Virus record (IMG/VR): IMGVR_UViG_3300032315_001071
Span: 1 to 25,450 of that record
Direction: 5' to 3' (one strand)
Length of the DNA: 25,450 nt
DNA from: a virus
A program made the translations under genes and the position numbers. Under the pieces are notes generated by a model. The model was not told where the DNA came from, made no database searches, and saw only the letters and a program-made list of their open reading frames with translations. Positions 4,152-23,302 of this stretch are shown one piece after another (position 1 is the first letter of the stretch; every line of letters begins with the position of its first letter).

Positions 4152-6755
4152 ATGACATCTGCTAAAACGACGCATACGGAAAAGCTGGCGCGTGGTTCTG
4201 AGTGGTACGCTCAGCAAGGATGGAAGATTCTTCCGTGTTTTGGAATTACAGACGGCGGACGATGCACATGTAATGGTGTTCACGCAGAGCCTAAAGATAT
4301 TGGTAAGCACCCGGTGATTGGCGAGTGGACTACTCGATCTACTGACGACGTTGAGACTGTCTCCGCGTGGTGGGAACGTAATCCAGAGAATAACATTGGT
4401 GTCCACTGTCAGCGGTCTGGATTTATTGTTATTGATATAGACCCTCGTTCTGACGGTGTTGACTCATTCGAGAAGTTTAAAGAAATGATTGGAATTGACC
4501 TACCCAAAACTGTTGAAGCATTTACTGGTGTTTACACCTATCAGGGAGTGCAAAACCGCGGGCGTCACATTTACTTCCGTGTCCAAGACGGAGAGAGTTT
4601 TGTAGGCAATCTCAAGTCTTTCGGTCTTCCTGGTATTGATATCAAGTACAACGGATATGTAATGGTTGCTCCTAGCCGCCACGGATCTGGTGTTACTTAT
4701 GATTGGGCTGCCGGCTGTGCTCCTTGGGAAGTTGAGATGGCAGAGGCACCCGAAGAATTGCTCGAAGCACTTCGCAAGCGTAGAGGAAGTGGTCGGACCG
4801 GCACATCTCTCGGTACTGGTGACTGGAGCTGGCTTGGAGATCTTGGTGGAGACGACCGAGTTGACATCAATAAGTTTTTGGAAGAGGGGATTGATGAAGG
4901 TTCCCGTGCGGTAGACGTTTACAAACTTACATGTGCAATTGCTAACAAGATGAATGTCGACTCGGAGGCTGGAAAGCTTGCAGTCGAAACTTTGATGATT
5001 CGCTTTAACCACGAAAAGGTTCGCCCACCTCTTGAACTTGAGGGTCAGGGCGGGCTTCTCATGCACGTTCGTCGTGCAATTGATTTTGTCGCCAACAACC
5101 CTGTTGGGGATATGCTGTGGCCAGGTGCTCAGGATTGGGCAAAAAATAATCAAGCTGAAGCTCGAGCCACCGCTGCTCAAGTTGCCGAGCAGCACGATGA
5201 TCCTTCTATCCAACTTCTTGGGACTATTGGTGCTGCAGTTGCCGACGCGGCCCATAGCGGCTCGTCTATTGATGAGGCATTTAGCGGTGGCAACGTAGAC
5301 ATCCCCAAAGATCCTGATGCTATCTCTGAGCATGAAGGTGGCACTCCGGGCAAGCGCTCACTGACTGATATTGGTAACGGACGACGAATGATTGACTCAT
5401 TTGGTTCTTCAGTTCGATACACTCCTGGAATTGGCTGGTTTATCTGGGAAGGTCAGTACTGGAAGCCAGATGCCGAAGATCTTGGTATGAAAGAACTTGC
5501 TAAGCGAATCCCTCCGATTATTGCTACCGAGGTTGCTAAATACGAAGACCAAGATAAAAAGAATGAAGTTCTCAAGTGGGCAAATCAAGCCAAGAGCAAT
5601 GGACGTCTTAATGGTGCAGTCGAGAGCGCAAACTCTGATCCTCGTATTGTTGTTCCCGTAGAGTCATGGGACGGCGATGAATATCTTTTGGGTGTTATGA
5701 ACGGAGTTATCAATCTTCGTACCGGGGAGCTTATGCGCGGTAGACCCGACCTACACATCACAAAGCGTGTCCCTGTCTCTTACACTCCTGGAATGCGTAA
5801 CGTTCGCTGGGAGCAGTTTGTGGACTTTGCAACTGGCGGAGACAAAGAACTTCAAGACTGGATTCAGCGTGCTGTTGGCTACACGCTCACCGGACTCAAC
5901 AACCAGGATCTTATGTTCCTTGTATACGGTCCGCCTGGTTCAGGTAAGAACACTTTTGTTGAAGCACTTGTTAAAGCTCTTGGTACCCAGCAGTATGCTT
6001 GGCCTCTTGATTCAAGCATTCTTGCTGACAACGGAGGGCAAACGTCCTCTACCGACCTCTATCACTGGGCTGAACTCCGTGGTCGTCGTATGGTCTGGGT
6101 CGACGAGCTGCCCGAATCAGAGCGTATCAAGGAAAACGCAGTCAAGAAGTTGACTGGTTCATCTGAAATCTCGGCACGTTCTCCTGGTGAAAAGCCGTTT
6201 ACGTTCAAGGCCCAGGCTAAGTTGTGGATTACCACAAACCACCGACCGATGATTACCGATGATGCTATGTGGCGTCGTATCCGTCCCATCCCGTGGTCGC
6301 ACGTTCCAGAGTCTCCTGATCCAGATCTTAAAGCGTATCTTTTTGATGCTGAGGGTGGGCTCCCCGCTGTCCTTGCATGGGCAGTTGAGGGTGCTATTAA
6401 ATACCTCGGCTCTTCTGCTCGTGACCCTCTTGGTTGGTGTACTGCAGTTCAAGAAGCCGCGGATATTTACCGTAAGAACGAAGACCGTATTGGTATGTTC
6501 TTGAATGAGGAGATGCGTGAGTCAGAAGGTTCAGAGATTGCAGTCAAGCAGGTCTATACTATCTATCGAATTTGGAGTGAAGAGCGCGGTGAGCGGGCTA
6601 TGACTCAAATTGCTCTGCAGCGTAAACTTACAGACAGAGGTATGAATATCGAAGGGCAAGGCTCTCGAGCTAAAATTAAAAACTGGGTCCTTAACCCTCG
6701 AATTGTTTCTAACACAAATATTGACTGGGGTATTGCCGATCGAATGGCTCAATAA
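4152..6755 (+). CDS. Bifunctional primase-polymerase / SF3 (D5-type) helicase
   Basis: This 867-residue replication protein joins two modules. Residues about 10-195 are a prim-pol domain: a Cys-containing loop (C-F-G-I-T-D-G-G-R-C-T-C), the catalytic V-I-D-I-D-P-R with D95 and D97, the G-R-H-I-Y-F strand near 137-142, and G-I-D-I-K-Y-N-G-Y-V. From about 400 a D5-like N-terminal region leads into an SF3 helicase: Walker A G-P-P-G-S-G-K-N-T (593-601), Walker B M-V-W-V-D-E (647-652), and L-W-I-T-T-N-H-R-P as motif C near 690-700. Such fusions start DNA synthesis and unwind the template in phages and plasmids. The ATG at 4152 has an excellent ribosome site 6 nt upstream. The gene stands alone in its own transcription unit. 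Confidence 0.93.
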   Translation: MTSAKTTHTEKLARGSEWYAQQGWKILPCFGITDGGRCTCNGVHAEPKDIGKHPVIGEWTTRSTDDVETVSAWWERNPENNIGVHCQRSGFIVIDIDPRSDGVDSFEKFKEMIGIDLPKTVEAFTGVYTYQGVQNRGRHIYFRVQDGESFVGNLKSFGLPGIDIKYNGYVMVAPSRHGSGVTYDWAAGCAPWEVEMAEAPEELLEALRKRRGSGRTGTSLGTGDWSWLGDLGGDDRVDINKFLEEGIDEGSRAVDVYKLTCAIANKMNVDSEAGKLAVETLMIRFNHEKVRPPLELEGQGGLLMHVRRAIDFVANNPVGDMLWPGAQDWAKNNQAEARATAAQVAEQHDDPSIQLLGTIGAAVADAAHSGSSIDEAFSGGNVDIPKDPDAISEHEGGTPGKRSLTDIGNGRRMIDSFGSSVRYTPGIGWFIWEGQYWKPDAEDLGMKELAKRIPPIIATEVAKYEDQDKKNEVLKWANQAKSNGRLNGAVESANSDPRIVVPVESWDGDEYLLGVMNGVINLRTGELMRGRPDLHITKRVPVSYTPGMRNVRWEQFVDFATGGDKELQDWIQRAVGYTLTGLNNQDLMFLVYGPPGSGKNTFVEALVKALGTQQYAWPLDSSILADNGGQTSSTDLYHWAELRGRRMVWVDELPESERIKENAVKKLTGSSEISARSPGEKPFTFKAQAKLWITTNHRPMITDDAMWRRIRPIPWSHVPESPDPDLKAYLFDAEGGLPAVLAWAVEGAIKYLGSSARDPLGWCTAVQEAADIYRKNEDRIGMFLNEEMRESEGSEIAVKQVYTIYRIWSEERGERAMTQIALQRKLTDRGMNIEGQGSRAKIKNWVLNPRIVSNTNIDWGIADRMAQ

Positions 6756-17548: not shown

Positions 17549-18032
17549 ACAGTATTTGCTCTCGTCTTAGTCTTGCTTTTGATACCGCGTAGTAGAGCGG
17601 GTTAGCGGAGCTCATCCCTAAGACCTTTGCAATCTTGTTTAAAGAAACTTTTTCAGTCTCATAAATGTGAAGGACAATCTCGTGGTAGCCAGTCGAGTCA
17701 CCTTCCGTGTTTGCAAATCCTCGTGCAAATTGGATCCTGTATGCAGCGTCAGAGATTTCTGCTTCTGTTGATTTGCTATTGGTTCCCTTACCTTTTGGTG
17801 GGATTTCTGCAGTCAAAACTCTACGTCTAATTCCCGCGTAGGTAACGTCCAGCTCTTTTGCAAGCTGCAGTAGACTTCCACCCTTAGAGTAGAACTCAAC
17901 AAGAAGCCTCGTGTATTCACGAGATGCGTCGTGTTGTGGAGACTTAGTGGCCCTTGAGCCATAAGCCTTTTTCGCAAGTTCGAGATGCGGTGCAATGTGT
18001 GCTGCATACTCTTGTGTCAGTTCGTCTTTCAT
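17547..18032 (-). CDS. Double helix-turn-helix DNA-binding regulator
   Basis: A 161-residue protein with two HTH segments: S-L-L-Q-L-A-K-E-L-D-V-T-Y-A-G-I-R-R-R at about 53-71 and S-L-N-K-I-A-K-V-L-G-M-S-S-A-N-P-L-Y at about 130-147. Both have the Ala/Leu-x-x-Leu-Gly/Asp-Val/Met pattern of resolvase- or sigma-type helix-turn-helix motifs. No enzymatic domain is seen, so a regulator binding two adjacent half-sites is likely. The gene has its own strong promoter and no leader, and lies divergent to the small basic protein and tmRNA, which it might control. Which phage targets it binds is unknown. Confidence 0.65.
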   Translation of the reverse strand: MKDELTQEYAAHIAPHLELAKKAYGSRATKSPQHDASREYTRLLVEFYSKGGSLLQLAKELDVTYAGIRRRVLTAEIPPKGKGTNSKSTEAEISDAAYRIQFARGFANTEGDSTGYHEIVLHIYETEKVSLNKIAKVLGMSSANPLYYAVSKARLRREQIL

Positions 18033-18244: not shown

Positions 18245-18577
18245 GGGCCTGACAGGATTCGACAGCTGTCTTAAGTCTGATGAAGCAAGCAGAAACTGCG
18301 GTGCATTCTTAAAAGTGTCGCACAAAAATAAAAGCAAACGCTAAAAGCGCCTTCGCTCTCGCAGCCTAAAAACTGTTAAAGCACTTTGACTAAATTTATC
18401 CCCCTTCGGATTAGTCAAAGTTAAAAAAGATGGGGGCGGTTTTTCAAAGACAGCTCTTTGGATTACCTGACCGTTCTGGCAAAACATGCGGTCAGGGACA
18501 CTTTTTAACTTGCCTAAGCTTGTAGAAGACCAGAATGAACGCAGTTGGACGGGGTTTCGATTACCCCCAGGTCCACA
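18245..18577 (+). ncRNA. ssrA: Phage-encoded tmRNA (10Sa RNA)
   Basis: Rescues stalled ribosomes by adding a degradation tag. The 5' end GGGCCTG (18245-18251) pairs with CAGGTCC (18568-18574) as a 7-bp acceptor stem (one G-T pair), and the 5' region has the typical G-A-C-A-GGATTCGAC. The T-arm GGGGT-TTCGATT-ACCCC lies at 18551-18567. The tag-coding frame (18334-18369) reads ANAKSAFALAA followed by TAA, with the classical ALAA ending. Several stems fit the pseudoknot region, including CCTGACCG/CGGTCAGG and TTTGACTAA/TTAGTCAAA. ACA follows the acceptor, so the CCA end is not encoded. Phage tmRNAs are known in actinophages. No own promoter or terminator is evident; readthrough from 18096 is likely. 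Confidence 0.95.
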
Positions 18578-18583
18578 ATAGAT

Positions 18584-19265: not shown

Positions 19266-22348
<3,083 letters not shown>

Positions 22349-22363
22349 CCTATTACATAAATA

Positions 22364-22372
22364 TGCTATACT
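22364..22372 (+). promoter_or_regulatory. Extended -10 promoter for leaderless HNH gene
   Basis: TGCTATACT ends exactly 6 nt before the ATG at 22379; no good -35. The same nine bases recur at 23288-23296. Confidence 0.6.
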
Positions 22373-22378
22373 GTCTAG

Positions 22379-22909
22379 ATGAATTGTTCATTTGACAAGT
22401 GCTCAAGGAAGTCGTACGCAAAAAATCTTTGCCAATCTCACTATAAAATGAGTCTTCGGGGAGAAGAACTTCGTACGTTACGACCAAGAGAGGGTGCGAG
22501 ACTTAAAACTTGCACCTTCGATGGTTGTCCCAAGCCACACAAGGGAAATAACCTTTGTTCTGGTCACAACTACCAAATGAAAAAGTTTGGAGAACTACGA
22601 CCATTAAAATATAACAATTCTGGGGAGTGGGGAGACTGGTATATAAATGGTAGTGGCTATCTAATGAGAACAAAAACGATTAATAGAATAAGAGAGAGTC
22701 AGCTACAGCATCGTTTTGTGGTGGAGCAGTACCTTGGAAGACAACTTCTCCCTGGAGAAAATGTTCACCATAAGAATGGTATAAGAGATGATAATAGGCT
22801 GGAGAATCTAGAGATATGGGTATCAAGCCAACCATCTGGTCAACGAGTTGAGGATCTAGTTAGTTGGGCTAAAGAAATACTAAATCGCTACAACGATTTG
22901 GATTTTTAA
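22379..22909 (+). CDS. Free-standing HNH endonuclease with two N-terminal zinc fingers
   Basis: A 176-residue protein. Two similar CxxxxC-x9-CxxH fingers come first (C3, C8, C18, H21 and C45, C50, C60, H63), then an HNH_3-type nuclease: H111-R-F-V-V-E, the catalytic V-H130-H131-K-N133-G, and D-N-R-L-E-N-L-E-I-W. The layout (DNA-binding fingers plus HNH) is that of phage homing endonucleases. It sits immediately after nrdF, and free-standing homing nucleases often lie next to reductase genes in phages, but neither nrdE nor nrdF is interrupted. It has its own leaderless-type promoter, so it is not simply a passenger of the nrd operon. Confidence 0.88.
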   Translation: MNCSFDKCSRKSYAKNLCQSHYKMSLRGEELRTLRPREGARLKTCTFDGCPKPHKGNNLCSGHNYQMKKFGELRPLKYNNSGEWGDWYINGSGYLMRTKTINRIRESQLQHRFVVEQYLGRQLLPGENVHHKNGIRDDNRLENLEIWVSSQPSGQRVEDLVSWAKEILNRYNDLDF

Positions 22910-22926
22910 CTAGAATGGTGTACTAT
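22898..22926 (+). promoter_or_regulatory. Promoter of candidate small RNA 1
   Basis: TTGGAT (22898-22903), 17-nt spacer, TACTAT (22921-22926). No start codon lies 6 nt downstream, unlike the leaderless genes; transcription should begin near 22933. Confidence 0.55.
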
Positions 22927-22932
22927 TACTAG

Positions 22933-23125
22933 TAGTGACAAACAAGACTGAACACTTGGGAGTTATTACTTATATTTATGTAGGTGCCTATCGGGGCAGA
23001 GCGATATCAGTGCAGAGTTCAGCTGAGACTGTGAGTGAAGCTTCAAGTAGGTACGGGGAAGTGGATAGCCGGAAAACGGTGAGCACGACTTTCAAACTCA
23101 AAACCCTCGCTTCGGCGGGGGTTTT
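22933..23125 (+). ncRNA. Candidate small RNA 1
   Basis: A unit of about 190 nt bounded by the promoter at 22898-22926 and the terminator at 23100-23125. The interior can form small stems (GCC-TATCG-GGGC, CAGT/ACTG, CCG-GAAAA-CGG). An 84-codon GTG-started frame (22935-23189) crosses it but also runs through the terminator and into the next unit, has no ribosome site and resembles no known protein, so an untranslated RNA is preferred. No known RNA family is recognised. Confidence 0.45.
23100..23125 (+). terminator. Intrinsic terminator of candidate small RNA 1
   Basis: AAAACCCTCGC pairs with GCGGGGGTTTT around a TTCG tetraloop, with the T run as part of the stem base. The next promoter begins two nt later. 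Confidence 0.85.
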
Positions 23126-23126
23126 G

Positions 23127-23135
23127 TGTTACAAT
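23127..23135 (+). promoter_or_regulatory. Extended -10 promoter of candidate small RNA 2
   Basis: TGTTACAAT directly follows the preceding terminator; transcription should start near 23142. No clear -35. Confidence 0.5.
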
Positions 23136-23141
23136 ATATCT

Positions 23142-23285
23142 AACATGGCACTTACCCGTCCATGCTGGCGCTCGATAGCGTCGCCGTAGTTGTAATGGCT
23201 ACGAGCTTATAGCAGGATTCTGTGCACGGAATCCCGCAGTGCCGGACCCCCTAGGAACAAGCTCGAAAGAGTGCCTAGGGGGTTT
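23142..23285 (+). ncRNA. Candidate small RNA 2 (structured, about 145 nt)
   Basis: A compact unit between an extended -10 box and a strong terminator. It can fold into successive hairpins: GGCGCT/AGCG..GCC (around 23165-23185), CGTAG/CTACG (23184-23202), GGATTC/GAATCC (23215-23234), then the terminator. Only a 14-codon frame (ATG 23145) is present. It is not a tRNA: no T-arm is found. Function and family are unknown. Confidence 0.5.
23246..23283 (+). terminator. Intrinsic terminator of candidate small RNA 2
   Basis: ACCCCCTAGG (23246-23255) pairs with CCTAGGGGGT (23274-23283); the loop holds a GCTC-GAAA-GAGT hairpin. Only TTT follows, but the long GC-rich stem is strong. The promoter of the next gene starts five nt later. 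Confidence 0.8.
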
Positions 23286-23287
23286 CG

Positions 23288-23296
23288 TGCTATACT
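23288..23296 (+). promoter_or_regulatory. Extended -10 promoter for leaderless gene at 23303
   Basis: TGCTATACT, identical to 22364-22372, ends exactly 6 nt before the ATG. Confidence 0.65.
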
Positions 23297-23302
23297 CCTA
23301 GC

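Follow-up and report, generated by a model that had tools for sequence, protein, structure and literature searches.

Actinophages make abundant, highly transcribed noncoding RNAs from intergenic gaps, as reported for Rhodococcus phage WC1 and mycobacteriophages D29, Kampy, and L5; the roles of these RNAs are not known (PMC10986025). In some mycobacterial prophages a noncoding RNA is used as replication origin (PMC7157519). Among structured phage RNAs, the pRNA of phage phi29 has two mutually complementary hairpin loops (PMC5340915), and GOLLD and ROOL are phage-encoded RNAs held partly by kissing loops (PMC12286853).

Here we analyse two consecutive units in one intergenic gap of a phage genome fragment. 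Like the actinophage RNAs, unit 1 (∼195 nt) would be a noncoding RNA from an intergenic gap; the described RNAs are highly transcribed and lie at the ends or in the middle of other phages' genomes. Like phi29 pRNA it is a phage RNA of similar size with two mutually complementary hairpin loops. Unlike pRNA, its predicted fold has no three-way junction, the complementary loop segments are 6 nt long, it has no covariance-model (Rfam) match, and no phi29-type packaging context was seen in the 25,450-nt window. GOLLD and ROOL are much longer than unit 1 (several hundred nt, GOLLD often over 800 nt, vs. ∼200 nt) and often lie near tRNA islands; on length and on the lack of an Rfam match unit 1 does not belong to them. 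The resemblance of pRNA and ROOL/GOLLD to unit 1 is only in the use of complementary loops. The prophage replication-origin RNA is, like unit 1, a short actinophage noncoding RNA, but it sits beside parABS of extrachromosomal prophages, whereas unit 1 belongs to a region of nucleotide metabolism and has a terminator at its end.

Genomic Context of the Locus

The window, i.e., the whole 25,450-nt stretch of DNA analysed, is a fragment (25 kb) taken from a virus record. Among large actinobacteriophages, Myrna, Racecar/Atuin, and Zooman/Big4 carry close relatives of its ribonucleotide reductase genes; of the contigs from cellular genomes, the nearest are Microbacteriaceae and Actinomycetales bins. 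The host of the phage is thus probably an actinobacterium. The gap is flanked by a free-standing HNH gene downstream of nrdB and by a DUF7246 gene (Table 1). In L013, another IMG/VR phage and the relative used for comparison, the HNH gene is absent and the unit 1 homologue directly follows nrdB; an M23-peptidase-like gene (named from its sequence) is found where the window has unit 2.

The HNH gene is inserted between nrdB and unit 1. It carries its own extended −10 leaderless promoter and probably encodes an intronless homing endonuclease next to nrdB. At 22880–22901, a weak terminator-like hairpin overlaps its end and the claimed −35 element of unit 1. The nrdB-to-DUF7246 interval (window 22349–23302; L013 7063–7959; L205 upstream of 3001) appears to be a hot spot for insertions: in the window it holds the HNH gene and the two RNA units, in L013 unit 1 and the M23-peptidase-like gene, and in L205 what seem to be tiny cysteine-rich frames. 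The open frame of nrdB and the nrdA gene share 97 nt (21287–21383), with such an overlap also in L013, and the true nrdB start may be further downstream than the start of the open frame. The window also contains a phage-encoded tmRNA (18245–18578) with the tag ANAKSAFALAA. In a distant relative, Arthrobacter phage Atuin (L202), tRNA genes and a gene for a Ro-like RNA-binding protein occur shortly behind nrdB (4394–6519).

Table 1. Positions of genes, RNA elements, and transcription signals in and beside the gap (window coordinates)
Feature	Position	Strand	Description
HNH endonuclease gene	22379–22909	+	Free-standing, outside the RNA unit; Pfam HNH_3
Putative weak unit 1 promoter	22898–22926	+	TTGGAT-17-TACTAT; 7/12 consensus
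Hairpin A (predicted)	22931–22970	+	P1 22931–22939/22962–22970; apical stem 22943–22946/22955–22958; loop ACUGAACA 22947–22954
84-aa frame	22935–23189	+	GTG start at 22935; overlaps both units; judged not a gene
Proposed loop-loop contact	22948–23022	+	CUGAAC 22948–22953 with GUUCAG 23017–23022; −7.6 kcal/mol; complementary in both phages
Hairpin B (predicted)	22984–23054	+	P2 22984–22990/23048–23054; P3 22993–22997/23040–23044; P4; apical stem; loop AGUUCAG 23016–23022
Hairpin C (predicted)	23057–23093	+	GGAAGU...GCC(G)GAAAA(C)GGU...ACUUUC; conserved in L013
Unit 1 intrinsic terminator	23096–23131	+	Hairpin of −21.2 kcal/mol; U-rich 3′ arm; conserved in L013
Unit 2 extended −10 element	23127–23135	+	TGTTACAAT; one of seven such sites on this strand
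Unit 2 body	23142–23244	+	Three predicted hairpins (MFE) closed by GGCACU/AGUGCC; 14-codon frame from ATG 23145
Unit 2 terminator hairpin	23245–23289	+	−23.7 kcal/mol; only three U behind the stem

Transcription Signals and Layout of the Gap

A sequence-only reading of this DNA had placed two terminator-bounded small RNAs at 22898–23285. Both units are present, but they are unequal: unit 1 is a conserved structured RNA as judged by comparison with L013, and unit 2 is unproven. The extent was corrected to ∼22931–23131 for unit 1 and ∼23142–23289 for unit 2. The two strong hairpin terminators were found as claimed, and so was the unit 2 promoter, a good extended −10 element located between them. 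By the criterion of TGN plus at least 5/6 hexamer matches, only seven extended −10 sites occur on the + strand of the window, and three of these form the joints at HNH, unit 2, and the DUF7246 gene.

The promoter proposed for unit 1 is present at its claimed position, but its match to the consensus is no better than chance: about 1.7 sites of equal score are expected per 388 nt in this DNA, and the site did not appear in the list from a consensus promoter scan. The one point in its favor is that, in both phages, the predicted start (∼22932–22933 in the window) falls at the 5′ boundary of the conserved fold.

The earlier reading had taken two terminators with promoters packed between them as the layout of regulatory or decoy RNAs. 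This argument fails because the joint of a terminator and an extended −10 element also stands ahead of ordinary leaderless protein genes, both in this phage and in its relatives, where the terminator hairpin and −10 element are followed by an ATG 6 nt on. Nothing points specifically to a decoy role. A −10 element, exactly 6 nt, and an ATG, often right behind a terminator, were observed in the window at 18032 (− strand), 18103, 22379, and 23303, and in relatives L003, L014, L024, L035, and L036; leaderless transcription appears to be a general rule in this phage group. The distance from the −10 element to the first possible start codon, read from the sequence, is 8 nt in unit 1 and 9 nt in unit 2, vs. 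6 nt for HNH and DUF7246; a spacing of 8 nt is seen at a few other joints. Unit 2 differs from the leaderless genes in this spacing, and unit 1 in both its spacing and its non-conserved reading frame. Neither unit is a copy of the other: they have just one notable stretch in common, the 15-nt terminator/−10 joint, which is repeated at the end of unit 2 (23278–23292) ahead of the DUF7246 gene.

A Common Fold with Compensatory Changes in Unit 1

The unit 1 homologue in L013 (7095–7291) is ∼70% identical and was the only one among the sequences searched. Separate minimum free energy (MFE) folds of the two sequences gave the same order of elements, hairpins A, B, and C followed by the terminator. 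Hairpin A is predicted to form a long stem, a 3 × 3 internal loop, and a 4-bp stem carrying the loop ACUGAACA; the loop is identical at 8/8 positions in L013, and the two arms of the short stem are identical at 2/4 positions each, with compensatory changes. Hairpin B is predicted to have a 7-bp outer stem, a 5-bp stem, an internal loop, and short apical stems, ending in a 7-nt loop that contains GUUCAG (GUUCA in L013) and reads (A/U)GUUCAG across both phages (6/7 identical). The GAAAA loop of hairpin C is invariant (5/5). Identity in the linker is 4/13, against these values for the three loops.

Five base pairs were altered on both sides between the two phages, a small count because only two sequences are known, and one that partly rests on a hand alignment and leaves out P4 of hairpin B. 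Two of these double changes are in P2 of hairpin B (C-G to A-U and A-U to U-A), one is in its apical stem (A-U to C-G), and two are in the apical stem of hairpin A (A-U to G-C and C-G to G-U, as seen in the alignment and folds). In hairpin C, one pair was gained or lost by a paired G...C insertion on both sides. No broken pair was found in the tested helices.

The consensus fold without the terminator gave z scores of −7.7 to −8.1 vs. column-shuffled alignments. The controls gave −1.2 for the antisense strand and a mean of −0.5 (minimum −2.9) for 56 coding windows of the same two phages. The single-sequence folding energies without the terminator were ordinary (z −0.8 and −1.6), and the signal lies in the shared fold. 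This common fold, with compensatory change beyond the controls, marks unit 1 as a conserved structured noncoding RNA by the comparison of the two phages.

The loops ACUGAACA and AGUUCAG are complementary over 6 bp in both phages; for random loops of 8 and 7 nt, six contiguous pairs would arise with a probability of about 0.001. Loops A and B were kept while the neighboring stems and the linker changed. Since nothing varies in the loops, there is no covariation between them, and we infer that they pair, as a kissing loop within one molecule or between two. The two forms of contact are indistinguishable from sequence.

Coding Potential of Unit 1

We also examined the 84-aa frame that starts with GTG in unit 1 (43 aa in L013). 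It gave no match to Pfam or PHROG, and it crosses terminator 1 without a stop. In gap-free in-frame blocks of the window and L013, mismatches at the three codon positions were 3/7/10. The same two phages gave 2/3/35 for DUF7246, 10/11/77 for the glycosyltransferase, and 53/16/146 for NrdB, so that the changes in unit 1 do not concentrate at third positions in the way those of its neighboring genes do. The net indels are in frame as far as codon 41, and a slight synonymous excess (six changes in 24 codons, P about 0.045) could be taken to favor a small protein; after codon 41 the two frames part by a 2-nt indel. A conserved protein from this region is unlikely on these comparisons, and we consider it highly improbable that the region encodes a small protein at all. 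The absence of a convincing gene, as claimed before, was borne out, and the search for synonymous-biased protein conservation across 22935–23189, named beforehand as what would speak against an RNA, left the RNA reading of unit 1 standing. Unit 1 almost certainly yields a folded noncoding RNA with a shape that, as deduced from the two homologues, was kept in a related phage despite much sequence change.

Searches for Homologues and Known RNA Families

At the gathering threshold, Rfam 15 matched only the tmRNA in the window and neither unit. More permissive Rfam scans of both unit 1 homologues gave only sub-threshold matches centred on the terminator hairpin, and ARAGORN reported the tmRNA only, with no tRNA or tRNA-like match for the units. 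When both units, the 84-aa frame, and the L013 homologue were compared by blastn with 50,697 phage records, only terminator or chance matches came up.

A covariance search had been suggested as a check. It recovered the L013 homologue, but no further member in the records and genomes searched: the unit 1 model found one homologue over 88 and 46 loci (the remaining matches were terminators), no further member in 48 + 37 whole records (related contigs, phages including Myrna, Atuin, and A3Wally, and bins), where recovery of the L013 record served as positive control, and no member in two draws of actinobacterial genomes (150 and 395; the other matches were terminators). All other IMG/VR matches to unit 1 DNA patterns were unrelated DNA by eye. 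A search by descriptor for terminators preceded by complementary hairpin loops returned both unit 1 copies; its other hits were chance-like sites.

Three further candidates were rejected. An HNH-associated RNA (HEARO/OMEGA-like) does not fit, as L013 carries the RNA without the HNH gene, and there is no Rfam match. An attenuator or riboswitch was dropped: no conserved antiterminator was seen by eye, and the downstream genes differ between the two phages. The Ro-like gene close to the nrd genes of phage Atuin prompted the idea of a Ro/Y-RNA, but unit 1 gave no family match. The claim of a small RNA of no known family is supported for unit 1, which has a conserved fold with compensatory changes and neither a coding signature nor an Rfam match. 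Since actinophage intergenic noncoding RNAs are already known (PMC10986025) and Rfam gave no match, unit 1 is, as judged from these searches, a new RNA family within a known kind.

Unit 2

Unit 2 would be a separate short transcript running from its own extended −10 promoter to its terminator, and it may be functional as an RNA, contain a tiny ORF, or serve as a spacer. The three further hairpins described earlier are indeed predicted, closed by a 6-bp stem, but they are no better than the window background: 25/494 control windows (5%) reach the z of −2.3 to −2.9 obtained without the terminator (−4.5 with the terminator included). No homologue was found in the sequences searched, IMG/VR DNA patterns gave short chance matches only, and L013 has its M23-peptidase-like gene instead. 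Unit 2 is a candidate small RNA on its good promoter and strong terminator; the proposal is weakened by the single sequence, the missing homologue, and structure within background. That unit 2 is a functional structured RNA in its own right is possible, though we lean against it.

Possible Modes of Action of Unit 1

The best-supported explanation, ranked above antisense, cis-element, and self-assembling readings, is that unit 1 is a structured noncoding RNA of ∼195 nt, transcribed on its own from an actinobacteriophage genome. Pairing of loops A and B would give it a defined compact shape, and the stable RNA would act in trans, using this shape to bind a protein or machine of the phage or its host. 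The trans-acting role is our best guess from the conserved fold. As a whole, i.e., with a trans-acting, shape-dependent unit 1 and a separate short unit 2 transcript, we hold the explanation with slightly better than even confidence.

Unit 1 could instead be a base-pairing regulatory sRNA that uses loops A/B or the conserved internal-loop side UGUGAGYGARGCUU as seeds against phage or host mRNAs. Its size, own terminator, and conserved loop sequences would fit, and actinophages do make abundant intergenic noncoding RNAs (PMC10986025). However, the two most conserved loops complement each other; the sole exact complement of loop A and its flanks in the window is its own locus, and near matches are at chance level. 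We regard antisense action as unlikely because the most conserved single-stranded segments would be consumed by pairing with each other. Quite unlikely, too, is that unit 1 matters only in cis, as a 3′-end, processing, or insulation element separating nrdB/HNH from the transcription unit that follows. Its place directly behind nrdB (L013) or nrdB-HNH (window), its strong terminal hairpin, and the frequency of terminator-promoter joints in these phages agree with such a role, but a terminator alone needs no hairpins A–C with covariation and conserved loops, and most other nrdB relatives inspected carry just a simple terminator hairpin there.

The complementary 6-nt loops on two hairpins might also pair between molecules and form dimers or larger rings, comparable in principle to phi29 pRNA or to ROOL/GOLLD. 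The short A–B linker in L013 would make a within-molecule contact tight, yet linkers of about 5–13 nt plausibly still permit it. There is no phi29-type context and no Rfam match to pRNA, GOLLD, or ROOL, and we consider intermolecular pairing improbable. It would equally be a long shot that unit 1 is the first of a new phage RNA family that assembles into dimers or rings via its two complementary loops, a small self-assembling RNA in a large tailed phage outside the phi29 group.

Among the actinophage intergenic RNAs, unit 1 is a compact case whose predicted structure is concrete and easy to test. Pairing of the loops between molecules would make it a further entry on the very short list of small self-assembling RNAs; as no more than a monomeric structured RNA, it would still define a new family absent from Rfam.
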